A stretch of DNA of 33,585 nucleotides. It comes from a virus. Location: the IMG/VR virus record IMGVR_UViG_3300027861_000109, positions 1 through 33,585 of that record. One strand, given 5' to 3'. Below, piece by piece: positions 16,679 to 33,365 of the stretch (within the stretch, counting starts at the first letter, position 1; the number at the start of each line of letters is the position of its first letter). Both the position numbers and the translations under genes were made by a program. The notes beneath the pieces are model-generated. The model ran no database searches and was not told the origin of the DNA. It saw nothing but the letters and a program-made list of their open reading frames with translations.

Positions 16679-16867
16679 ATGATCGACGACACTGAAATTC
16701 TCTCACTGAAAAAGATCAGGGATGCCCTGAAGGGCCAGCGGCTCCTATTGGTGGCAGACGCAACCGGCCTGAGTTTCCCGACAGTCAACAAGCTGGCGAC
16801 GGGCGAGGTCAGCAACTATTCCTATGATACGGTCAAGCGGATCAGCCAGTGGATACACGCACAATGA
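16679..16867 (+). CDS. Cro/XRE-like HTH regulator
   Basis: 62 residues, GGAG 9 bases before ATG. It contains a helix-turn-helix: LLLVADATGLSFPTVNKLAT, with the recognition helix around SFPTVNKLA and an XRE-like tail (YSYDTVKRISQWI). It is the first gene of the rightward operon and faces a palindrome in the shared control region, so it probably represses one or both early promoters. Too small to be a CI-type repressor with a cleavable domain. Confidence 0.75.
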   Translation: MIDDTEILSLKKIRDALKGQRLLLVADATGLSFPTVNKLATGEVSNYSYDTVKRISQWIHAQ

Positions 16868-16928: not shown

Positions 16929-17414
16929 ATGATTATCCTTGGCATTGACCCCGGCATTAACGGCGCTGTCGCTTTATACGACACTGGCAGCAATACCATC
17001 GTAACAACGGGCTACCCGCACAAGACGGAACCATATAAGAAGACCACAAGAAAAATCATTGATGGCATTACCCTGCACAGATACCTGTCAGCCTTTGCCA
17101 TTGATGAGGTCTGGATGGAAAAGGTCAACGCCTTCGGGATGGGCCGCACCAGTGCCTTCAGGTTCGGTGAAGCCAACGGGGTTGCAATCGGGGTCATATC
17201 TGCTTTAGGCTTGTCAATCAATTTCGTGACCCCGCAGAAATGGAAGTACCATTTTGCACTGGATAACGACAAGGCCAGATCAAGGGAACTAGCACAACAG
17301 TTCTGGCCTGACGCCGCTGACCAGTTCGCAAGGGTGAAAGACACAGACAGATCAGAGGCCGCACTAATAGCGATGTATGGAGCATTGACTAATGGATACA
17401 CAACTAAAACCTGA
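16929..17414 (+). CDS. RuvC-like Holliday junction resolvase
   Basis: 161 residues, GGAG upstream of ATG. RuvC fold motifs: MIILGIDPG with D7, VWMEKV with E64, and DTDRSEAALIAMYG with D140 and E143 in place of the usual D/D pair. The phage enzyme would resolve branched DNA before packaging. The primase-helicase gene starts inside its last 23 bases, so the two are coupled. The fourth acidic residue being Glu is a small deviation from the E. coli protein. Confidence 0.85.
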   Translation: MIILGIDPGINGAVALYDTGSNTIVTTGYPHKTEPYKKTTRKIIDGITLHRYLSAFAIDEVWMEKVNAFGMGRTSAFRFGEANGVAIGVISALGLSINFVTPQKWKYHFALDNDKARSRELAQQFWPDAADQFARVKDTDRSEAALIAMYGALTNGYTTKT

Positions 17415-19596
17415 TACCAACAGCATCCTGTCGCACTTGGAAACCATATTCGGTGACCAGATGACGGGTCTGGTGGAACTATCATGGACAGACCCCTTTG
17501 GGCCACTCAAACACGCCCAGTTATTTGAACTCGACAATCTCGACAGCATGGCAGAAAAGGCCGAAAGCCTTAATCAAACAGAAGGCGTCAACGTTTATTA
17601 TGGTCAGGCATTAAGAAGCCCAAACTGTGCGCCGTTCGGGCGTACCTCTGACAGTGACGTTATCGCCCTCACAGCCGTCTATTGCGATCTGGATGACGCA
17701 GGTGCCGCAGAGGCCGCAAGGGCCATCTACACGGCAATAGGCATAAAGCCCACCAGTATCGTCATCACAGGTGAACACCCTCACGTTCGGGCGCAGATGC
17801 ACTACAGGCTACTGGAAGCCATCACAGATCACGCCCAAATGCGAAATATTAACAGTGCAATATGTCGCACATTCTCAGGCGATCCTACAGTTGTTAATCC
17901 CTCAAGGGTTCTGCGATTACCCGGCACAATAGCGTGGCCCCACAAAAAGGGCCGTGTTGCAGAAATGACGCAACTTATTGACAGCTTCCCTGATAATAGG
18001 CCAAAATCACTTGCGATTGAACATATAGAAAGAGTTTTTTCGGAGAGCAGCGACGGCGGGCCTTCCCTCCCGTTTCAGTCAGCAGCCCCGGATAGTGGGG
18101 TCCAGACATTGCCTCCATCATTGTCTGGCCCCACACCCCCTAACAGGCTTGTCGCAGGTGTAGAAGGTCAGGAGTACTGGCTAGAACGCATCAAGGCCGG
18201 GGACCACTGGCATAACAACATGATCAAGCTGGTTGGGTCCATGATGGCCCAAGGCATTGCAGACGACGTTATACTGTCACTCGCCCCCACAATAACCCTG
18301 CCGGGATATGCCTTGCCGGATACCCTCAGAGAAATGGGGGTTGCCATTCAAGGCGGCAGAAAAAAGGGTTTCACAGAAGGCGTATCACCTAGTGGTACAC
18401 CAGAACAGTTAATCCCTGAAGGCGACTTGATTGCCACACCACTTAGAAAATTCGACCCTGCCACAATACCGCCACGGCCTTGGATCGTCAGCGGGCTACT
18501 CCTAAAGGGTAAGGTTTCAGTCATTATCGCCCCTCCCGGTGTTGGTAAATCCACACTGACCATCCAGATCGGCATTGCCATCTGCACAGATAAAGACTTT
18601 GGCACACTGGTCATCAAGGATCAGGGCAAGGTCTGGCTATACAATAACGAAGACGATCAGGAAGAACTGGAACGCCGTGTTGCTGCCGCAGCTATTCACG
18701 TTGGTATGCAAGCCAGTGACCTGACAGATGTGATGTTCGTCAACTCAGGAGAAAACAGGGAACTCCTAATAGCAAGAGAAGACCCAAACACCAGCTACGT
18801 CATCCCGGTTGACGTTGATGCCGTGGTCGAGCAGATCAAGGCCAACAATATCAAGGTGCTGGTCGTTGACCCATTCGCAGAGACGCACACGGTCAACGAA
18901 AACTCTAATGATCATATCAAGCAAGTGGGCCGTATGTACCGCCAGATAGCCCAGCGCGGTGATTGTGCCGTCTTATTGGTGCATCACACCCGCAAGCCCT
19001 CACAGGCCGCTGGTGACACTCATATAGGTAATATGGACAGCGGGCGTGGCGCTGGCGCACTGTCAGGCGTTGCCCGTGTCGTCACCACATTGTACGGCAT
19101 GACAGAAAAAGATGCTGACCGGTTCGGAATACCCGCAGAAGAACGCAACCTGTATATCCGAATGGATGACGCAAAGGCCAACCTTTCACTGGTATCAAAT
19201 GAGGCTAGATGGTTCAAACGGACCTCCGAAAACCTTGGGAACGGCCCCATCGGCGCAGGTGATGAGGTCGGCGTTCTCAGCCCCGTTGACCTGTCCAGCA
19301 ATGAACAAAAGGCCAAAAAACAGAAGGCTGACGAAGAATCGCAGATGATGTTTGATGTCCTTCAGGTCGTCAGAACTGAGCCAGCAACGCCAAATTACAT
19401 TGCCGGGATCATGGCGAAAGGAGACGTTTACACCACCTCCAGCGGCACGAATTTGAAGGCAAACGCAGTGGCAAACAGGATCGTTACCAGCCTGACTTAT
19501 GGCTCGATCAGGGTCGGAGATTGGGTCATAAATATGGAAATTTTCCCTGATGGAAAGAAGAAATATCGGGTCTTCGCAGAGGAGAAAAAGCTGTGA
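17392..19596 (+). CDS. Primase-helicase (RepB-like primase domain plus RepA-like AAA ATPase)
   Basis: 734 residues. The N-terminal region has a primase-type core: TAVYCDLDDAGAA (D-x-D at about 102-104), SIVITGEHPHVRAQMHYRLL and the conserved NPSRVLRLPGTIAWPHKKGR found in RepB-like and AEP-related primases. A Pro-rich linker follows at about 225-250. The C-terminal RecA-like domain has Walker A in IIAPPGVGKSTLTIQIG, a NNEDDQEELERR box, Walker B VLVVDPF and a LLVHHTRK sensor, as in RepA/AAA_25 helicases. It is probably the replication initiator and helicase, with the iteron array directly downstream. Confidence 0.85.
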   Translation: MDTQLKPDTNSILSHLETIFGDQMTGLVELSWTDPFGPLKHAQLFELDNLDSMAEKAESLNQTEGVNVYYGQALRSPNCAPFGRTSDSDVIALTAVYCDLDDAGAAEAARAIYTAIGIKPTSIVITGEHPHVRAQMHYRLLEAITDHAQMRNINSAICRTFSGDPTVVNPSRVLRLPGTIAWPHKKGRVAEMTQLIDSFPDNRPKSLAIEHIERVFSESSDGGPSLPFQSAAPDSGVQTLPPSLSGPTPPNRLVAGVEGQEYWLERIKAGDHWHNNMIKLVGSMMAQGIADDVILSLAPTITLPGYALPDTLREMGVAIQGGRKKGFTEGVSPSGTPEQLIPEGDLIATPLRKFDPATIPPRPWIVSGLLLKGKVSVIIAPPGVGKSTLTIQIGIAICTDKDFGTLVIKDQGKVWLYNNEDDQEELERRVAAAAIHVGMQASDLTDVMFVNSGENRELLIAREDPNTSYVIPVDVDAVVEQIKANNIKVLVVDPFAETHTVNENSNDHIKQVGRMYRQIAQRGDCAVLLVHHTRKPSQAAGDTHIGNMDSGRGAGALSGVARVVTTLYGMTEKDADRFGIPAEERNLYIRMDDAKANLSLVSNEARWFKRTSENLGNGPIGAGDEVGVLSPVDLSSNEQKAKKQKADEESQMMFDVLQVVRTEPATPNYIAGIMAKGDVYTTSSGTNLKANAVANRIVTSLTYGSIRVGDWVINMEIFPDGKKKYRVFAEEKKL

Positions 19597-19880
19597 AAAT
19601 ATCCCATTTCTATCCCAGCAATCTATCCCACCACAGTATCCCATCTATCCCAGCAAAACCCCGTGGGATAGGTCAAACCCTTATCCAGCAACGGTTTCGC
19701 TATCCCACGGGCATTTCTATCCCAGCAGATTTGGTGGGATCGCAAGTCATTGATATCAAACGGTTATTTCTATCCCACTATCCCACCTATTACATAGGAC
19801 AAGCCTTTTGCTGGGATGCAAGGCAATCCTCTGCCAAAATGGCTACTGGGAAACAGACAAAATGGAGAGTAAAAAGATGA
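19593..19880 (+). CDS. Coupled 95-residue frame lying over the iteron array
   Basis: Starts at GTG 19593 overlapping the primase-helicase stop (GTGA), with AGGAG 8 bases upstream, and ends with TGA overlapping the next gene's ATG (ATGA). The product begins MKISHFYPSNLSHHSIPSIP and ends TKWRVKR. Its first half is composed of translated TATCCCA repeats in all three frames. The double coupling and ribosome-binding site suggest translation. The out-of-phase repeats suggest selection for DNA sites rather than protein. It may act mainly to carry ribosomes across the origin, or may make a small basic protein. Confidence 0.45.
   Translation: MKISHFYPSNLSHHSIPSIPAKPRGIGQTLIQQRFRYPTGISIPADLVGSQVIDIKRLFLSHYPTYYIGQAFCWDARQSSAKMATGKQTKWRVKR
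19600..19817. repeat. TATCCCA iteron array, candidate replication origin
   Basis: The heptamer TATCCCA occurs exactly at 19600, 19611, 19624, 19637, 19646, 19701, 19718, 19771 and 19779 on the plus strand, and once inverted at 19664-19670. Near matches (TATCCA at 19682; inverted TGGGAT at 19735 and 19812) add to the cluster. A longer 16-base unit, CATTTCTATCCCAGCA, is repeated exactly at 19605-19620 and 19712-19727. Located just after the primase-helicase, it fits an iteron-type origin bound by that protein or a partner. Confidence 0.75.
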
Positions 19881-20344
19881 AAAAGAACACCCCTGAAAAA
19901 CCCATCGTTAATTTTCATTCCGAAACACCAATTTCGGAAAAAACAAAGTTGGCACACTACGTCCACCAGCTTGATGCTTTCCTGATTGATCGTTGGGGAA
20001 TTGGCTGGTCGGAGACTTGGGCGACTGATATTGTCTTGCTGAAGGTGTGGGAGCAGAGAGGGCTAACTTGGTCGTCTTTGGCACTTGGCACCATCGAACA
20101 GGCCAACATACACGCAGAGGCGTATAGCCGGGCCGTGAAGGCGCTTGATGACAACGCCCACCAGACAGGCCACGTATCCAAGGAAGGCACAGAGTTCGTC
20201 AACGCTGTCCTTCAGACGTTCCCCGGAGCGCAGGTCGTCGGCGTCAGGGATGCACAGGCACCGCTGCCAGATAACGGCGACGATTTACCGTGGGATTTGT
20301 CTGACGTACCGCTTCCGGGTAAACAAACTGAATTAACTTGGTAA
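19877..20344 (+). CDS. Protein of unknown function downstream of the origin
   Basis: 155 residues from ATG 19877, with GGAG about 9 bases upstream and an ATGA overlap with the preceding frame. Helical and Trp-rich in the middle (RWGIGWSETWATDIVLLKVW, EQRGLTWSSLALGTIEQANI), with an acidic, Pro-rich C-terminus (LPDNGDDLPWDLSDVPLPGK) that could bind a partner protein. Position beside the origin suggests a replication accessory role; no family recognised. Confidence 0.65.
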   Translation: MKKNTPEKPIVNFHSETPISEKTKLAHYVHQLDAFLIDRWGIGWSETWATDIVLLKVWEQRGLTWSSLALGTIEQANIHAEAYSRAVKALDDNAHQTGHVSKEGTEFVNAVLQTFPGAQVVGVRDAQAPLPDNGDDLPWDLSDVPLPGKQTELTW

Positions 20345-22168: not shown

Positions 22169-22474
22169 ATGGAAGTTAAACAAACACCCCTTGCAGACAT
22201 ACTGCCCTATGCGGCAAACGCCAGGACACACAGCGTTATTTGTGCTATGTGCGGCACGACAGACGGCTTGCAGGTCCACCACATTGTTCCGTTCCGCCTT
22301 ACCAGAGACAATACGCAGAGCAATCTTGTCCCGCTTTGCTTGAAACATCATAAGCACGTTGAAACTGTTACGCATGACATTGAGGCTGTAACCGAAGATT
22401 TTGAGGTGATGAAGTTATTTATGGGAAATATAATCAGGGAACATCAAGACAGGTGGAGGCTGGCGCATGGATGA
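22169..22474 (+). CDS. HNH endonuclease with ParB-like N-terminal leader
   Basis: 101 residues. The HNH zinc finger is complete: CAMC (25-28), LQVHHIVPF (HH about 36-37), N at about 50, and CLKHH (56-60). The first 22 residues, with PLADILPYAANARTHS, resemble the start of ParB-type methyltransferases, and the next gene has the equivalent LSADEIRPYKNNSRTHS. It looks like an HNH cassette joined to the beginning of a methyltransferase gene, next to an intact copy. It overlaps that gene by 8 bases. Possibly a free-standing homing or packaging-associated nuclease. Confidence 0.75.
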   Translation: MEVKQTPLADILPYAANARTHSVICAMCGTTDGLQVHHIVPFRLTRDNTQSNLVPLCLKHHKHVETVTHDIEAVTEDFEVMKLFMGNIIREHQDRWRLAHG

Positions 22475-23708
22475 TAAACTTGAAATAAAATATCTGTCTG
22501 CCGACGAAATTCGACCATATAAAAACAACAGCAGGACACATTCCGCTGACCAGATTGATAGACTGAAGCGGTCAATAAAGCAGTTTGGCATGTTGACGCC
22601 TATCGCTATTCACAATGGCGATATTGTTTATGGACACGCGAGGTTTACAGCCCTGAAGGCATTGGGCTGGACGGAGTTCCCGACTGTAGATGTTTCGCAC
22701 TTAAGCGATGAAGACAAACGCGCTTACATAATCGCTGATAATCGCCTTGCACTTGACGCCGGATGGGATTTGGACCTGCTCAAGATAGAACTGACGGGGC
22801 TGGACGATGAAGGCTTTGACCTGTCCCTGATTGGCTTTGACCCCGACGAGTTAGCTAACCTGATGCAAGAGCCGACAGAAGGGTTGACCGATCCCGACGC
22901 CGTTCCCGACATACCTGACGACCCTGTTACAAAGCCGGGGGATGTCTGGATTATGGGCAAGCACCGATTATGCTGCGGAGACAGTACGAGCGCAGACGAT
23001 GTTGCGAAGGCGCTTAATGGTGTTGAACCGCACTTGATGGTTACTGACCCGCCTTATGGTGTCGAGTATGACGCCGAATGGCGCAAGGAGGCGTTGCCAG
23101 ACACAAACCCCGGAAAGACGGGTGGTATGCATGGCAAGGTGTCAAATGATGACAACGCAGACTGGTCAGAAGCTTGGTCGCTATTCCCCGGAGATGTTGC
23201 GTATGTTTGGCACGCTGGGAATAAGGCAAATATTGTTGCTGATAGCCTGTTGAAATGCGACTTGAACATTAGGGCGCAAATAATTTGGAACAAACACCAG
23301 CACGTTATTAGCCGTGGCGACTACCATCCGAAACATGAGCCATGCTGGTATGCTGTGCGGAAGAACAAAGTGGGGCATTATTGCGGAGGGCGGAAGCAGT
23401 CAACAGTTTGGGATATTCAGAAGCCGCTTAATTCAGAAACAGGCCACAGCACGCAAAAGCCTGTCGAATGTATGCAGCGCCCTATAGAAAACAATTCAAG
23501 CCCCGGTCAGGCGGTTTATGACCCGTTCCTTGGTTCCGGCACAACAGTCATTGCCGCAGAGCAAACGGGCCGCGCTTGTCACGGTCTGGAACTGTCCCCA
23601 GCATACTGTGACGTTATCGTAAAACGCTGGCAGGACTTCACTGGCGAACAGGCCACACTTGAGGCAGACGGGACCGTTTTTTCCCCTGATATAGCAAATG
23701 CCCCGTAA
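22467..23708 (+). CDS. ParB-N domain DNA methyltransferase (beta class, N6-adenine or N4-cytosine)
   Basis: 413 residues. Residues 1-100 are a ParB/Srx-like domain (SADEIRPYKNNSRTHSADQI, IVYGHARFTALKALGWTEFP, IIADNRLALDAGWD). From about 155 comes the methyltransferase: GDVWIMGKHRLCCGD, catalytic DPPYG at 194-198, then the SAM-binding DPFLGSGTT at 352-360 and GLELSPAYCDVIVKRW. Motif IV before motif I is the beta-class order. No restriction partner is visible apart from the HNH proteins. Likely protects phage DNA or marks it for packaging or regulation. Confidence 0.9.
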   Translation: MDDKLEIKYLSADEIRPYKNNSRTHSADQIDRLKRSIKQFGMLTPIAIHNGDIVYGHARFTALKALGWTEFPTVDVSHLSDEDKRAYIIADNRLALDAGWDLDLLKIELTGLDDEGFDLSLIGFDPDELANLMQEPTEGLTDPDAVPDIPDDPVTKPGDVWIMGKHRLCCGDSTSADDVAKALNGVEPHLMVTDPPYGVEYDAEWRKEALPDTNPGKTGGMHGKVSNDDNADWSEAWSLFPGDVAYVWHAGNKANIVADSLLKCDLNIRAQIIWNKHQHVISRGDYHPKHEPCWYAVRKNKVGHYCGGRKQSTVWDIQKPLNSETGHSTQKPVECMQRPIENNSSPGQAVYDPFLGSGTTVIAAEQTGRACHGLELSPAYCDVIVKRWQDFTGEQATLEADGTVFSPDIANAP

Positions 23709-24051
23709 ACCAAGAGGCAAAGCACACGGCAGGCCAGCGTTCAAGCCGACTGACGATGACCGCAAAACGGTTGAATTGATGTGCGCTGTAGGCATACCGC
23801 ATGAAGGCATTGCCCGCTGTATTCAGGGCGGCATTGACGACAAGACGTTACGCAAGCACTTCCCCGAAGAACTGGAAACCGCAGCTATCAGGGCAAATAC
23901 AAAGGTTGCCGGGTCAATGTTCCAGTCAGCTATCAGCGGGAATGTTGCGGCGCAAAAGCACTGGACTTCTGCCCGCATGGGTTGGAGCGAGAACCTGAAG
24001 CTGGACGCCACAGTTAGAAAGATCAGCATGTTTGGTGAAGAAATAGAATGA
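23698..24051 (+). CDS. terS: Terminase small subunit
   Basis: 117 residues; ATG 23698 lies inside the end of the methyltransferase gene and the stop overlaps the large-subunit ATG (ATGA). The N-terminus is basic (PRKPRGKAHGRPAFKPTDDD). An HTH follows: RKTVELMCAVGIPHEGIARC then GIDDKTLRKHFPEEL. The helical remainder (AIRANTKVAGSMFQSAISGN) is typical of small terminases. It should bind the pac site and hand DNA to the large subunit. Confidence 0.8.
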   Translation: MPRKPRGKAHGRPAFKPTDDDRKTVELMCAVGIPHEGIARCIQGGIDDKTLRKHFPEELETAAIRANTKVAGSMFQSAISGNVAAQKHWTSARMGWSENLKLDATVRKISMFGEEIE

Positions 24052-26120
24052 TTGGTGCTGCGTCTGACAAGTTCAAGCCAATGCTGGCCCGCAGCCGTTA
24101 TAAGGCTTTATACGGTGGACGCGGAAGCGCCAAGAGCCACTTCTTCGCAGAGGCGTTGATTGGTTGCGCTGCTGACAGTATGGGGTTTCGTGCCGTCTGT
24201 ATCCGCGAAGTCCAGAAGACACTGCGGGAATCGGCCAAGCGACTGTTAGAGGACAAGATTGAAGCCTTCGGCCTGCAAAACAGCTTTCAGATACTCAATG
24301 ACAGGATTGTAACGCCGGGCGGCGGCACGATCATCTTTCAGGGTATGCAAGACCACACGGCGGAAAGCATCAAGTCGCTGGAAAACTTTCAGGTGGCTTG
24401 GGTCGAGGAAGCGCAGACATTATCGCAGAAGTCCCTTGAACTGTTGCGCCCAACGATCCGATCAAAAGGCTCTGAGTTATGGTTTAGCTGGAACCCGCGC
24501 TCTGCAAGCGACCCTGTAGACAAGTTCTTTCGTGGCCTGACCCCGCCTGAAAGTTCAATCATTATCGGGATCAACTACCCGGACAACAAACTATTCCCGA
24601 CTGAACTGGAAGCAGAACGCCAGCACGACTATGCCACGAACCAAGGCCGCTATGATCATATCTGGCTTGGCGGTTACGAGCCTGAAGCCGTGGGTGCTAT
24701 CTTTAACCGGGCCAACATTCACGAAAACCGCAAGGCAGAAGCACCTGAACTTGAACGCATCGTGATTGGCATTGATCCTGCCGTCACAGACAACGAGAAC
24801 AGCGACCATCACGGCATAGCAGTCTGCGGCCTTGGCAGCGACGGACGCGGCTATCTGTTAGAGGACGCCAGCTTACAGGGTGGGCCGCACCAGTGGGCAA
24901 CCAGAGCCGTTGCAATGTTCGATCTGTACGAGGCCAACGCCATAGTGATTGAGGTCAACCAAGGCGGAGACCTTTTGAGGCATACACTTGAAACTGTACG
25001 CAAGGGTATCCCGATTATTGAAGTCAGGGCGACGAAAGGCAAGCACGTTCGGGCAGAGCCTATATCAGCATTATACGCTATCAACAAAATCAGCCATATC
25101 GGCACGTTTAACGACTTGGAAAATCAGCTTTGCGTAGAAGAAGGAACACTAATCGAAACAGACCGTGGGCAAGTGCCTATTGAGGATGTTACCTTGAGCG
25201 ACAGGGTTATGACCCGTAACGGCCTTGCGTTAATTGACTGGTGTGGCTATACTGGTGAAGCAAGCAGTCTTATTGAAATTGAGACTGTAAATTCAGTCTT
25301 GAGGGTTACGCCATGCCATCCGATATATCTACCAGAGACAAACGAGTTTGTGACTGTGGAGAGTGTTCTGATTTCCCACAACCTACTAGAAAGCCGCAAA
25401 TGGGCAAGAATGGCCAGCCTGTTGCGTGGCGAGGTAGATGGTATGGGAAAATGCCAAGAGGCCACTATCGCAACTCACATACAGGATTACTTCACAGAGA
25501 AATATTTGAGGCGCATACAGGCCCAATCCCTGAAGGCTTCCATATTCACCACGTTAACCACGATCCTGAAGACAATCGCCCTGAAAACCTTGTCGCACTT
25601 TCCCACGCCGATCATCATGCCTTGCATGAGCGCATGGGGTTTGATGTCTTTGACGGCACAATCACAGTCGGCAAATGTGTCGAGTGCGGAGCAAGCACCG
25701 AAACAATACGACTTCACGCCAGCGAATACTGTTCGCAAAAGTGCTATATGCGGAGATACAGACGCAGCAAACCCAAGACAACATTCGTCTATGGATGCGC
25801 TGAGTGCAGCCAAATCATTGCAACAACCCATAAGAACGGCAAGAAATATTGCTCTCCGAAATGTAAGGCGCGTGGATTTAGGAAAAGACACAAAGCGGGT
25901 CTATAATATTACGGTTGCAGAAAGTGGCCTTCCAGAGTATTATGCTAACGGTATCCTGACCCATAATTGCAAATTCACCAATGTGGGGTATGATGGCGAC
26001 GACAGCCCTGATCGTGCTGAAGCTGCAATTTGGGCGTTTACAGAATTATTCCCGGCGCTGGTCAAACAGAAGCCGAAGAAGCAACACCAGAGGCCACGTA
26101 AAATTAGCTGGATGGGCTGA
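24048..26120 (+). CDS. terL: Terminase large subunit interrupted by an intein
   Basis: 690 codons; 411 residues after intein removal. ATPase motifs: Walker A GGRGSAKS at 23-30, Walker B VAWVEEA at 116-122, coupling motif FSWNP at 146-150. RuvC-like nuclease: D243 in IVIGIDPAV, E302 and D308 in VIEVNQGGD, and the last motif SPDRAEA with D655 after the intein. Joining residue 361 to 641 gives FNDLENQL-CKFTNVG, the expected terminase sequence, so splicing appears essential for the nuclease. The protein should cleave and pump DNA into the prohead. The start overlaps the small subunit stop (ATGA). Confidence 0.92.
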   Translation: MIGAASDKFKPMLARSRYKALYGGRGSAKSHFFAEALIGCAADSMGFRAVCIREVQKTLRESAKRLLEDKIEAFGLQNSFQILNDRIVTPGGGTIIFQGMQDHTAESIKSLENFQVAWVEEAQTLSQKSLELLRPTIRSKGSELWFSWNPRSASDPVDKFFRGLTPPESSIIIGINYPDNKLFPTELEAERQHDYATNQGRYDHIWLGGYEPEAVGAIFNRANIHENRKAEAPELERIVIGIDPAVTDNENSDHHGIAVCGLGSDGRGYLLEDASLQGGPHQWATRAVAMFDLYEANAIVIEVNQGGDLLRHTLETVRKGIPIIEVRATKGKHVRAEPISALYAINKISHIGTFNDLENQLCVEEGTLIETDRGQVPIEDVTLSDRVMTRNGLALIDWCGYTGEASSLIEIETVNSVLRVTPCHPIYLPETNEFVTVESVLISHNLLESRKWARMASLLRGEVDGMGKCQEATIATHIQDYFTEKYLRRIQAQSLKASIFTTLTTILKTIALKTLSHFPTPIIMPCMSAWGLMSLTAQSQSANVSSAEQAPKQYDFTPANTVRKSAICGDTDAANPRQHSSMDALSAAKSLQQPIRTARNIALRNVRRVDLGKDTKRVYNITVAESGLPEYYANGILTHNCKFTNVGYDGDDSPDRAEAAIWAFTELFPALVKQKPKKQHQRPRKISWMG
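25313..25906 (+). CDS. HNH homing endonuclease nested out of frame in the intein
   Basis: 197 residues in the -1 frame relative to terminase. ATG 25313 has GAGGG 7 bases upstream; ATG 25400 is a second candidate, since 25313-25400 also encodes conserved intein strands. The HNH_3 core is intact: HREIFEAHTGPIPEGFHIHH, DPEDNRPENLVALSHADHH, with HH/N/H residues in the usual places. Two C4 zinc-finger-like motifs follow: CVECG...YCSQKC and CAECS...YCSPKC. The stop TAA at 25904-25906 is formed from intein block F bases. It likely makes a free endonuclease that promotes homing of the intein. Confidence 0.85.
   Translation: MPSDISTRDKRVCDCGECSDFPQPTRKPQMGKNGQPVAWRGRWYGKMPRGHYRNSHTGLLHREIFEAHTGPIPEGFHIHHVNHDPEDNRPENLVALSHADHHALHERMGFDVFDGTITVGKCVECGASTETIRLHASEYCSQKCYMRRYRRSKPKTTFVYGCAECSQIIATTHKNGKKYCSPKCKARGFRKRHKAGL
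25445..25451 (+). promoter_or_regulatory. Candidate -1 ribosomal frameshift heptamer
   Basis: In the intein frame the bases read ATG GGA AAA TGC, giving G GGA AAA, an X XXY YYZ heptamer. A -1 slip moves the ribosome into the HNH frame at GGG AAA ATG, a few residues before the HNH core. Only a short possible hairpin (GCC-AAGA-GGC) lies downstream. Chance occurrence cannot be excluded. Confidence 0.3.
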
Positions 26121-26161: not shown

Positions 26162-28360
26162 ATGGCACACGATCAAGACGACGACAAAATCTTAGAAGAA
26201 GCCAAAGACCTCTTTGAGCAGTGTGTCGAGGCTGAGAAAGAAAACCGCATTGAGGCGCTGGCTGATCTGAAGTTTGGCCGGATGGGTGATCAATGGGATG
26301 ACGCAGACCGCGAGGCCAGAGAGCAAGACGGTCGCCCGATGCTCACAATCAACAGATTGCCTAGCTTCATTCGCCAGATTGTGAACGAGGCAAGGCAAAA
26401 TAAGCCATCCATCAAGGTTCACCCGGTAGACGACAGCGCCGATCCGGACACAGCCGAAATCCTGAACGGCATTATCCGTAACATTGAAATCCAGTCAAAA
26501 GCTGACGTTGCTTATGACACTGCCATTGATAGCGCCGTGTCGAATGGCTTCGGCTATTTCCGCATCGACGTTGATTATGACTTCGGAGATACGTTTGACC
26601 AGTCAATCAAGATCAATCGTGTTGGCAACCCCTTCACGGTCTATCGCGACCCCAACAGCACCAGCGCAGACACTTCCGACTGGAACCATGCCTTTGTCAC
26701 TGAAATGGTACCAGAGGACGAGTTCAAGCGGCAGTATCCAGACGCAGAGCCTGTAGACTTTGAAAGCGACGAGCGCGACGAAAAGACCCGGCTATGGTAT
26801 GAAGATAAGTCTGTACGTGTCGCGGAGTATTGGGTTCGTGAAGAAGTCCAGGCCAATCTGGTAAAGCTGTCAGACGGTCAGTCCATGATGGAAAGCGATT
26901 ACATTGAGAACCAAGAGTATTTTGAAAGCGTTGCCATTCAGGTCGTCGATAGCCGCCCAATCCCGACGCACGAAGTCACGCAGTATCTGATTTCAGGCGC
27001 TGAAGTGCTTGAAACTAATCCTTGGGCCGGTAAGTTCATTCCGATCATTGATGTGATAGGCGATGAAGTCAATATTGAGGGCAAGCGATACTTCCACAGC
27101 CTGATCCACTTCGCCAAGGACAGCCAGCGCATCTACAATCACTGGCGCACCGCTGAGACAGAGTTGATTGCATTAAGCCCCAAGACGCCATTTATCGGCA
27201 AAGAAGGCGCGTTTGATAACGATGACCGCTGGGCCACGGCCAACACAACAAGCCATCCGTATCTGGAATACAGCGGCGAACATATGCCGCAGCGTCAACC
27301 GTTCGCAGGACCGCCCGCTGGTGCCATTACCGCAGCCCTAGCCGCCTCTGACGATATGAAGTCAGTCATGGGGATGTATGACGCCAGCTTGGGCGCAAGG
27401 TCAAACGAGACAAGCGGTGTTGCTATTCGTGCAAGGCAAGCTGAGGGCGACGTTTCCAACTTCCACTTTCTCGACAACATGAGCCGCGCCATCCGTCACG
27501 CTGGCGTTGTGATACTGGACCTGATCCCACACGTATACCATGAGCCAAGAGTGATGCGGATTATGGGCGAAGACGAAACCCCTGAAGTAGTACGGGTTAA
27601 CCAAGAATTTCCAGTAATGGGTCGGGGCGGTCAACCACAAATGCAGCCGCCACAGATGGACCCTATGGGCCAGCCATTGACGCAAGAGCCAGTGATGCAG
27701 ATTTATGACCTCACTGCTGGCAAATATGACGTAACAGTAAAGGCTGGCCCATCCTTCACAAGTCGCCGCGAAGAAGCCGCGCAACAAATGACGCAGCTAT
27801 TGCAGTCATTCCCACAGGCCGCGCCGGTTATTGGCGACATATTGGCTGAAAGCCTCGATTGGCCCCGCGCTGACGAGATTGCCAAGCGTCTTAAGTCAAT
27901 GCTACCCCCCGGTATCGGTGCTGACGATGACGAAGAAGGCAACCCGGAGGCCGAAGCCCTGAAGCAGCAAATGCAGCAGGGTATGCAGGCGTTCCAACAG
28001 CTACAGCAAGAACACGAAGGCATGAAGGTTGACAAGTCGATTGAGCAACAGAAACTGCAAATTGACCAGATGAAAGCCCAGGGCGAACAGGTCAAAATCC
28101 AGATCGAGCAATTCAAGGCTGAAACTGATCGTATGGCCGCAGAAGCCGAAGCCATGAAGGATCAGGCAGAAGCCGCGCACAAGACCGCTGAACTGCAAAT
28201 GAGTATGATGGCACCCGCAGAAGCCCCAACGGCCCCTGTCGCGCCTCCTGAAGCCTCTGAGCCTGTTGTCGTCAACGTAAACGGCAGTCAAGCCAAGGTG
28301 GTGAAGGTTCATCGTGATGAAATGGGTGTAATGCAGGGTGCGGAGGTGTTTGAACAGTGA
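26162..28360 (+). CDS. Portal protein, P22-like
   Basis: 732 residues from ATG 26162; a TTG at 26150 is an in-frame alternative. The N-terminal block EKENRIEALADLKFGRMGDQ, then QDGRPMLTINRLPSFIRQIV and NEARQNKPSIKVHPVDD, is characteristic of P22-type portals, as is NPFTVYRDPNSTSADTSDW. After about residue 570 a long Gln/Lys/Glu helix (KQQMQQGMQAFQQLQQEHEG, QQKLQIDQMKAQGEQVKIQI) forms a probable barrel or coiled coil inside the head, followed by an Ala/Pro-rich tail. Forms the 12-fold ring through which DNA passes. Confidence 0.9.
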   Translation: MAHDQDDDKILEEAKDLFEQCVEAEKENRIEALADLKFGRMGDQWDDADREAREQDGRPMLTINRLPSFIRQIVNEARQNKPSIKVHPVDDSADPDTAEILNGIIRNIEIQSKADVAYDTAIDSAVSNGFGYFRIDVDYDFGDTFDQSIKINRVGNPFTVYRDPNSTSADTSDWNHAFVTEMVPEDEFKRQYPDAEPVDFESDERDEKTRLWYEDKSVRVAEYWVREEVQANLVKLSDGQSMMESDYIENQEYFESVAIQVVDSRPIPTHEVTQYLISGAEVLETNPWAGKFIPIIDVIGDEVNIEGKRYFHSLIHFAKDSQRIYNHWRTAETELIALSPKTPFIGKEGAFDNDDRWATANTTSHPYLEYSGEHMPQRQPFAGPPAGAITAALAASDDMKSVMGMYDASLGARSNETSGVAIRARQAEGDVSNFHFLDNMSRAIRHAGVVILDLIPHVYHEPRVMRIMGEDETPEVVRVNQEFPVMGRGGQPQMQPPQMDPMGQPLTQEPVMQIYDLTAGKYDVTVKAGPSFTSRREEAAQQMTQLLQSFPQAAPVIGDILAESLDWPRADEIAKRLKSMLPPGIGADDDEEGNPEAEALKQQMQQGMQAFQQLQQEHEGMKVDKSIEQQKLQIDQMKAQGEQVKIQIEQFKAETDRMAAEAEAMKDQAEAAHKTAELQMSMMAPAEAPTAPVAPPEASEPVVVNVNGSQAKVVKVHRDEMGVMQGAEVFEQ

Positions 28361-29745
28361 CGACAGAAGGCGTCCTCCCCGTCCCCGGAACTGGTGAGCT
28401 ACTGGATACGACTGTTGTCACGCAAGAGAATGGTGAATCACAGGCGCACCGTGAGGTTGTTGTCCTTGCTGATCCTGATGATGCCGCTGCAAGAGCCGGT
28501 GTTACAAACGCAACGCCGTCTTCAACAGATTACGGCAGTCTGATCCGGCAGATAGAGCATCCTGCGTCGCGTGGTGCTTTCGGCTGGCTTCGTGTAAGCG
28601 CACCGACAACGCTGTTCGACAGCAAACAGCTATTCGACAACGCGCCCCTGTACTGGGATGACCAAGAGGTCAGCGGCAGCGGCACGACCAGCGTGCATTC
28701 AGCACTAAAGGCTTCATCCACCCTCGGAGTTGCCCTGAACACCGCAGGCAAGCGGGTGCGGCAGACTTTCCAGAGCTTCAATTACCAACCGGGCAAGTCA
28801 CAGCTTGTGATGATGACAGGCAACATGGGGGATAGTGGCGGCGGTTCCGGCATTGATGCAGGCATGGGTTTGTACAACGGGACTGATGGTGTCGCCGTCC
28901 GCTCTGTTGATGGCGTCCTTCAGTTGTTTGTTTCGAGCGGCGTGTCTGGTTCCGTTGTCGAGGACAGCGTCAGCCAAGGCAGCTTCAACGGAGACAACCT
29001 CGACGGCACCGGGCCGTCCGGCCTGACACTGGACCCGACACAGACGCAAATCTGGTGGATGGATATGGAGTGGCTCGGCGTCGGGACCGTTCGCACAGGG
29101 TTTGTTATCAACGGCGAGTTCATCCTGTGTCACTCGTTCCACCATGCCAACCTTGTCGGCAATGTCTACATGTCAACGCCCAACCTGCCCTTGCGCTACT
29201 GGCTTGAGAACGACGGTACGGGTGCGGCGACGACATTGCAGCATATTTGCTCGACAGTAATCAGCGAAGGCGGCGTTGAGCGTATCGGCAACCTGCACTA
29301 TCACTCGACAGAGGGGACGCACATCAACGCGGATACTGCCAACACCCTCTATGCGGTTGTCGGCATCCGTCTGCAAGCCGCCAAGATCGGGCAGGTGGTT
29401 GACCTGACAAACATATCCCTGATTAACGCGGCTGCGGACGACTTTGAGTGGATTGTGATGTGGAACCCGACCGTTGCCGGGACGTTCACGTACACTGACC
29501 ACGTAAACAGCGCCATTCAGACGGCAGTCGGTGCAACGGCTAACACAGTAACCGGGGGCCACGAAATGAACGGCGGCTTTGTCAAGGCAGGCAATACCAC
29601 CGGCTCAGTGTCTGTCGAGATAAGCAACGCATTGCGGCTTGGCGCTGCCATTGACGGTACCCTTGACGAGATTGTGTTGTGTGTCCGGCCTCTGACAAAC
29701 GGCGCAGACATTGATGGCGGCGTGTCGTGGCGTGAGCTGACCTGA
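28357..29745 (+). CDS. Probable virion surface (head fibre/decoration) protein
   Basis: 462 residues; GTG 28357 overlaps the portal stop (GTGA) and has GGAGGTG upstream. After a 60-residue linker comes a large beta-sandwich-like region rich in Gly, Ser, Thr and Asp (RVRQTFQSFNYQPGKSQLVM, GGGSGIDAGMGLYNGTDGVA, TQTQIWWMDMEWLGVGTVRT). The last third (ADDFEWIVMWNPTVAGTFTY) is also beta. This composition fits exposed capsid or fibre proteins of marine phages. Placed between portal and scaffold, a head-associated role is more likely than tail. No enzymatic motif seen. Confidence 0.65.
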   Translation: MTTEGVLPVPGTGELLDTTVVTQENGESQAHREVVVLADPDDAAARAGVTNATPSSTDYGSLIRQIEHPASRGAFGWLRVSAPTTLFDSKQLFDNAPLYWDDQEVSGSGTTSVHSALKASSTLGVALNTAGKRVRQTFQSFNYQPGKSQLVMMTGNMGDSGGGSGIDAGMGLYNGTDGVAVRSVDGVLQLFVSSGVSGSVVEDSVSQGSFNGDNLDGTGPSGLTLDPTQTQIWWMDMEWLGVGTVRTGFVINGEFILCHSFHHANLVGNVYMSTPNLPLRYWLENDGTGAATTLQHICSTVISEGGVERIGNLHYHSTEGTHINADTANTLYAVVGIRLQAAKIGQVVDLTNISLINAAADDFEWIVMWNPTVAGTFTYTDHVNSAIQTAVGATANTVTGGHEMNGGFVKAGNTTGSVSVEISNALRLGAAIDGTLDEIVLCVRPLTNGADIDGGVSWRELT

Positions 29746-32628: not shown

Positions 32629-33365
32629 TGACGAAAATCAACTTTGTATCGCTTGACCCTGTTTCACAGGAAACTCTTGCGGAACATCGTGATTACAGTC
32701 GCGGGTTGGGATTGCCGGAAATCGGTTCCCGACCCGTAACTGATCGTCTTGCTATTGTTGGTGGCAGTCCTTCTGTTGTTAACCACATTGAAGAATTACA
32801 GAATTTTGATGGCGAAGTATGGGCCATTAACGAGGCTCACGAATGGTGCCAGAATAACGGCATTGTTGCCACATTCTATTGCATAGACCCGACAGATACA
32901 TTTGAATATTTAAGCACAACGACAAAAGCCGTCCTGGCTGATATTGTTGCACCTTCTGTATTTGATGACCTGATAGCAAATGATTGCGACATTGAATTGG
33001 TCCGGCTTGATGAGATTATGCATGGCAGCGCGGCAGCATCCAGCGGCCCACAGATAGCCCTTAGACGCGGCCACAAGCATGTAACAATGTTCGGGTGCGC
33101 CCAGAGCTTCACAACGTCCACACACCTTTACAAAGACGTATCAAGACACAACCAGTTATGGGTTGAGTGCGGCGGGACTGAATACCGGACAACCTCGCAG
33201 AACGTAATGCAGGCCGAATTGTTAGCAGAACTGGCAACGGCTTTTCCATCATTTATCACAGTCAAGGGCGAGGGGTTTCTGCCCGCACTGATCAAACATG
33301 GCGACTATGACGTTTCGCACGTTTCCAGACATATCCATGATGCACTATTCGGAGAAGCAGCGTGA
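32628..33365 (+). CDS. MptE/DUF115-like Rossmann protein
   Basis: 245 residues; TGATG overlap with the upstream gene. The core RLAIVGGSPSVVNHIEELQN, GEVWAINEAHEWCQNNGIVA and FYCIDPTDTFE follows the DUF115/6-hydroxymethylpterin pyrophosphokinase-like family (GGGPS loop and a D-P motif). Phages carry related genes among structural genes; some are thought to modify glycans, but the substrate is unknown. GPQIALRRGHKHVTMFGCAQ supports a Rossmann-like second half. Confidence 0.7.
   Translation: MTKINFVSLDPVSQETLAEHRDYSRGLGLPEIGSRPVTDRLAIVGGSPSVVNHIEELQNFDGEVWAINEAHEWCQNNGIVATFYCIDPTDTFEYLSTTTKAVLADIVAPSVFDDLIANDCDIELVRLDEIMHGSAAASSGPQIALRRGHKHVTMFGCAQSFTTSTHLYKDVSRHNQLWVECGGTEYRTTSQNVMQAELLAELATAFPSFITVKGEGFLPALIKHGDYDVSHVSRHIHDALFGEAA

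Follow-up and report, generated by a model that had tools for sequence, protein, structure and literature searches.

The window analysed here, a 33,585-bp IMG/VR virus record with a P22-type portal (phrog_156) and a terminase, contains a dense cluster of the heptamer TATCCCA directly behind the gene for a 734-aa primase-helicase. The locus raises the question of whether this cluster is the site at which the phage begins DNA replication and, if so, which protein reads the repeats. The initial annotation had proposed a probable phage replication origin on the basis of the repeats and their position.

The exact count agreed with that annotation: nine direct copies (+ strand; 19600, 19611, 19624, 19637, 19646, 19701, 19718, 19771 and 19779) and one inverted copy (− strand; 19664) occupy the 186 bp from 19600 to 19785, which form the proposed origin core. 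The array begins 4 nt past the stop codon of the ORF at 17392–19596, so it does lie directly after the primase-helicase gene, as had been stated. Its first block (19600–19652) consists of five direct iterons with the spacings of 11, 13, 13 and 9 already noted, followed by 18, 37, 17, 53 and 8. The exact 16-base repeat CATTTCTATCCCAGCA was recovered at 19605 and 19712. Inverted copies with one mismatch occur at three sites, 19735, 19812 and 19847; the first is GATCCCA (19735–19741, − strand), and the second lies inside TTTTGCTGGGAT (19806–19818, − strand), of which 12 nt are complementary to 19647–19658. This 12-bp inverted repeat, TTTTGCTGGGAT / ATCCCAGCAAAA, accounts for the end at 19817 given in the initial annotation.

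The density of the repeats was far beyond chance. TATCCCA is found exactly only twice more in the window, for which 2.5 copies in total would be expected, and no heptamer in the window clusters more densely, the array having ten copies and the runner-up four. When the 700 bp 3′ of the gene were compared with 300 dinucleotide shuffles, no shuffle exceeded four copies (0/300 reached ten), and elsewhere in the window 45 stretches of 700 bp held at most three (0/45). A coding repeat was ruled out because the spacings are mostly not multiples of three and break the reading frame. An iteron origin comprises several short specific repeats, more than chance would give, next to an initiator gene; here, ten copies in 186 bp stand 4 nt from the stop codon of a putative initiator gene, a place that is kept in relatives.

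Further structural elements were located within and beside the array. An iteron palindrome, CTATCCCA-GCAAAACCCCG-TGGGATAG, lies at 19645–19671, 49–75 nt 3′ of the stop codon; many relatives also possess a palindrome flanked by iterons, roughly 70–110 nt past the gene. A perfect 12-bp inverted repeat, CCCGTGGGATAG/CTATCCCACGGG (19660–19671 and 19700–19711, 28-nt spacer), folds as a hairpin at −15.3 kcal/mol (z −5.4) when 19640–19725 is treated as single-stranded DNA. By analogy with the ssi sites, the priming hairpins for RSF1010 RepB′ (PMC4234260), it could be a candidate priming or initiation hairpin. The most AT-rich 100 bp beside the array (19850–19949, 34% GC) represent a weak candidate unwinding element, which extends into the beginning of the next ORF.

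GC skew favoured an origin at the array weakly. Within the 13–24 kb stretch the skew minimum was found at 19,982, a weak signal confounded by gene orientation and by the global pattern, and the global minimum of the cumulative skew lies at 995, away from the array. At four-fold sites of co-oriented genes the skew was −0.31 to the left of the array and 0.00 to the right, values that gene orientation likewise confounds.

The 734-aa protein (+ strand) combines three parts. The helicase part matched Pfam AAA_25 at residues 354–537 (E 1.8e-39) and, in the PDB, RSF1010 RepA (1g8y, E 9.4e-14, residues 357–611), and is therefore of the RSF1010 RepA type. Residues about 80–190 form a PrimPol/RepB′-like N-terminal domain, for which a profile built with four relatives matched the PrimPol AEP 6zp9 (E 1.1e-6); its RepB_primase match (E 0.0042) was below the cut-off. 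The variable C-terminal domain (residues about 611–734) gave no confident fold match and no significant match to known DNA-binding folds, and one relative's C-terminal domain matched MarR_2 weakly (E 0.25). This domain diverges fast throughout the family.

A single-sequence search of viral and genome contigs returned no close relative of the primase-helicase. No relative above about 30% identity was found, and at that distance the conservation of TATCCCA itself is not traceable. Protein similarity was the sole criterion for choosing relatives, which comprised 26 IMG/VR records from an alignment of four RepA-type proteins and more with L206 as the query; their arrays were scored blind to the motif against 300 dinucleotide shuffles. 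An irregular, mostly two-strand heptamer array was present within 700 bp 3′ of the gene in 18 of 21 members tested, the window included (p ≤ 4/300; 17 arrays at 0/300 shuffles and one at 4/300), some of these members being mutually related and thus not all independent. The remaining three have an array farther off, between +685 and +1300. Array starts were often at +2 to +44, i.e., within 50 bp of the gene.

The arrangement is thus conserved with a heptamer specific to each lineage, among them TCCACAC, CGCACCT, GCCCCAG, GTGCTAC, GTGTGTC, CTGCTAC, GGTTCCA and ACTCACA. As regards the search for 7-mer clusters in related phages proposed in the initial annotation, heptamer arrays occur at the same place, but TATCCCA is replaced. 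With a different word in every lineage and no privileged status for TATCCCA, its enrichment in relatives was the wrong test. A heptamer that changes with the lineage is what would be expected of sites fitted to a protein, not of a site for a host factor, and initiator and sites seem to change together across lineages.

The array was found in several forms of the system. Three relatives (L190, L191 and L199) carry three to four direct repeats at intervals of about 10 bp, the first of them 8–10 nt past the stop codon, comparable to the first block of the window, and alphaproteobacterial plasmid records with terminase genes (Rhodoplanes and Caenibius) carry 8 and 12 copies from +21 and +9, respectively. 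Long forms have the fused AEP-like domain and short forms lack it, the helicase and the C-terminal domain being common to both; some short forms have a separate Toprim gene. Arrays were clear in the short forms L195, L199 and L200 and weak in short-form plasmid records (L230–L232), and the more distant AAA_25 phages L172, L176, L177 and L142 showed no array close to the gene. Replication modules are mosaic among portal-family phages, and those with a RepA-type gene have a heptamer array between this gene and the terminase gene. In a phage with a VirE-type replication gene, L184 (ctNMl277), GTTTACA (ten copies) and CTACCAA (seven copies) form two separate arrays, at 28224–28485 and 28784–28987.

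A second palindrome, CCC(C)TTTAGGGG / CCTCTATAGGGG, recurred in or beside the iteron arrays 3′ of the helicase gene, with differing surrounding iterons (L190, L191, L194, L198, L199, L200, L203, L205, L206, L222, L224, L228 and L231). A regular expression of this type, picked post hoc, had matches in 14 of the 27 members, the background rate being 0.16 per 1200 bp; a few matches, e.g., in L204, are less specific. The palindrome is absent from the window and was for that reason kept out of the claim.

TATCCCA was also followed as a word across viruses. Scanning for three close copies gave many clusters, and among the matches listed most were regular tandem arrays with 9-, 11- or 15-bp periods. 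A stricter bidirectional pattern, requiring an inverted copy, was found at 11 loci, and the reversed control heptamer at 19, so that a universal viral iteron was rejected. One further TATCCCA array (G006/L060) sits after an unrelated AAA_25 protein and was attributed to coincidence or convergence rather than kinship. Bidirectional arrays of the word were seen in four other phages: L145 (3225–3531), L056 (789–1135), L083 (129–414) and L012 (2596–2952). That of L012 lies directly 3′ of a DUF5906 primase-helicase gene, and those of L056 and L083 enclose long alternating purine-pyrimidine tracts.

As to which part of the protein reads the iterons, the pair L205 and L206 was informative. Their ORFs are 95.5% identical in DNA and the 736-aa proteins differ at 18 positions, 15 of which fall within the last 107 residues (P 6e-11). 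Six of seven L205 iterons coincide with L206 iteron positions, although the words differ (GTGTGTC vs. GTGCTAC), and identity between the aligned arrays was 0.63 in iteron columns compared with 0.81 outside. The pair is suggestive of the C-terminal domain as the putative iteron reader, possibly swapped along with the origin in a single module. As a counterpoint, P26218 and L210 share one heptamer at 79% C-terminal identity. Given this case and the generally rapid divergence of the C-terminal domain, the L205/L206 switch was regarded as one suggestive natural experiment, perhaps a recombined module.

When all these results are considered, the TATCCCA cluster is very probably the place where the phage begins DNA copying; the arrays 3′ of the homologous gene in relatives support the annotated origin strongly, and the skew minimum at 19,982 adds weak, confounded support. 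It also appears likely, judging from sequence comparison, that the upstream primase-helicase is the initiator of this origin and that its own C-terminal domain binds the iterons. In such a mechanism, the TATCCCA iterons would serve as binding sites for the variable C-terminal domain, the predicted hexameric helicase of the RepA type would open the DNA at or beside the array, and primers would be made by the PrimPol/RepB′-like domain, perhaps on the 12-bp-stem hairpin.

The strongest competitor retains the origin and assigns the reading of the iterons and the loading of the helicase to another protein, as RepC does in RSF1010; it was judged improbable. Possible readers of this kind are a small DNA-binding protein of the phage, such as the 62-aa HTH protein encoded at 16679–16867 or whatever the ORF beginning at 19877 encodes, and a host factor. 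In favour of this view, RSF1010 binds its iterons with RepC, a protein distinct from the helicase RepA and the primase RepB′ (PMC4234260), a gene for a small regulator-like protein lies shortly before the primase-helicase gene of the window, and in P26218 a small gene separates RepA from the array. However, the array is often less than 50 bp from the helicase gene while the next gene varies among relatives, the L205/L206 iteron switch goes with changes inside the helicase protein itself, and a fixed host factor would not yield a new heptamer per lineage. Among the window proteins scanned (a subset of the ORFs), no match to the RepC family was obtained.

Much less probable is a role of the repeats as operators through which a regulator or Rep controls downstream transcription with no origin involved. 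Iterons can double as autoregulatory sites, and the array does lie between two co-oriented genes. Nevertheless, no promoter-like or terminator-like site was detected in 19400–20100, and the array as a promoter or terminator was rejected on this basis; moreover, the array is downstream of the rep gene and not upstream, its position tracks this gene and not a fixed downstream gene, and five to twelve copies in mixed orientation over 100–300 bp are origin-like. A DNA packaging or partition site is very improbable, even though repeats in phage genomes may function as pac or cos sites and a methyltransferase with a ParB_N domain is encoded in the window, since some 4.3 kb separate the array from the terminase large-subunit gene, since it adjoins a replication gene, and since such arrays were found via rep-gene homology, portal-family relatives with other replication modules having repeats elsewhere (in PBR31, inside the annotated replication gene).

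Two of the genes in this region showed features of their own. The ORF at 22467–23708 fuses the ParB_N domain to an N6/N4 DNA methyltransferase. The terminase large-subunit ORF (24048–26120) contains an intein-like insertion at about residues 363–640, which matched Hint_2 (E 1.5e-5) and the intein C-terminal splicing region TIGR01443 (E 9.8e-5) and is lacking in the portal/terminase relatives L121–L124. Within the coding region of this insertion, in another reading frame, a 197-aa HNH endonuclease ORF (25313–25906; HNH_3, E 3.1e-16) is a predicted nested, out-of-frame homing endonuclease.

Returning to the origin read by its own primase-helicase, a broader reading is possible but doubtful: a lock-and-key family in which each lineage re-spells its iterons along with the C-terminal domain, so that related co-infecting phages, satellites and phage-plasmids could not cross-use initiators. 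If this were true, L205 and L206 would capture a natural switch of the code that happened recently. The family supplies many natural initiator-site pairs of different specificity, which makes a recognition code and origin incompatibility testable. The origins of most uncultured phages are unknown, and the results suggest a simple rule: an irregular heptamer cluster just 3′ of a RepA-type helicase gene marks a probable origin in most members of this widespread family. The literature searched, which included few subscription journals, held no account of iterons downstream of RepA-type phage primase-helicases.

The closest phages in arrangement are Rhodoferax phage P26218, whose genome paper does not mention iterons, and Podoviridae sp. 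ctfPj964. Both have a P22-like portal and carry an array between a RepA-type gene and the terminase gene; unlike in the window, their heptamers are CTGCTAC (at 33349–33648 in P26218) and ACTCACA, respectively, and the array is 0.3–0.7 kb from the RepA-type gene.

With the RSF1010/IncQ oriV the window shares a helicase homologous to RepA (1g8y), an N-terminus weakly similar to RepB_primase/PrimPol, and iterons with a hairpin. The IncQ origin has long tandem iterons, in contrast to the irregular heptamers in mixed orientation found here. In addition, RepA, RepB′ and RepC are three proteins, and the window system resembles this tripartite system fused into one.

The assertion in the initial annotation that the array resembles plasmid-type iterons rather than a usual phage origin was too strong, as the phage satellites SaPI and P4 have iterons beside the initiator gene (PMC7581432, PMC4234260). 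SaPI Rep and SCCmec Cch2 of the staphylococcal islands use the C-terminal domain to bind iterons that immediately follow their own genes (PMC7581432). The placement of short iterons directly downstream of a helicase gene is the same in the window, and it is the L205/L206 pair that points to C-terminal reading here. In contrast, the island helicases are of the D5 type, and the present arrays belong to phage genomes with their own capsid genes. The alpha protein of phage P4 is a single polypeptide with primase, helicase and origin-binding domains, the last a winged-helix domain that binds the origin repeats (PMC4234260), and the same union is proposed for the window protein. The alpha primase is of the Toprim type (PMC4234260), and no sequence link between the two proteins was seen. 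In plasmid pRN1 and phage BIP-1, an AEP-helicase protein with C-terminal DNA binding is likewise followed immediately by the origin and a stem-loop, in pRN1 54 bp downstream of the prim-pol/helicase gene (PMC4234260), but the pRN1 origin is without iterons and its helicase belongs to superfamily 3. The window protein would thus act in the manner of SaPI Rep or P4 alpha while standing outside those families, its helicase being not of the SF3/D5 type but a RepA-like AAA_25.
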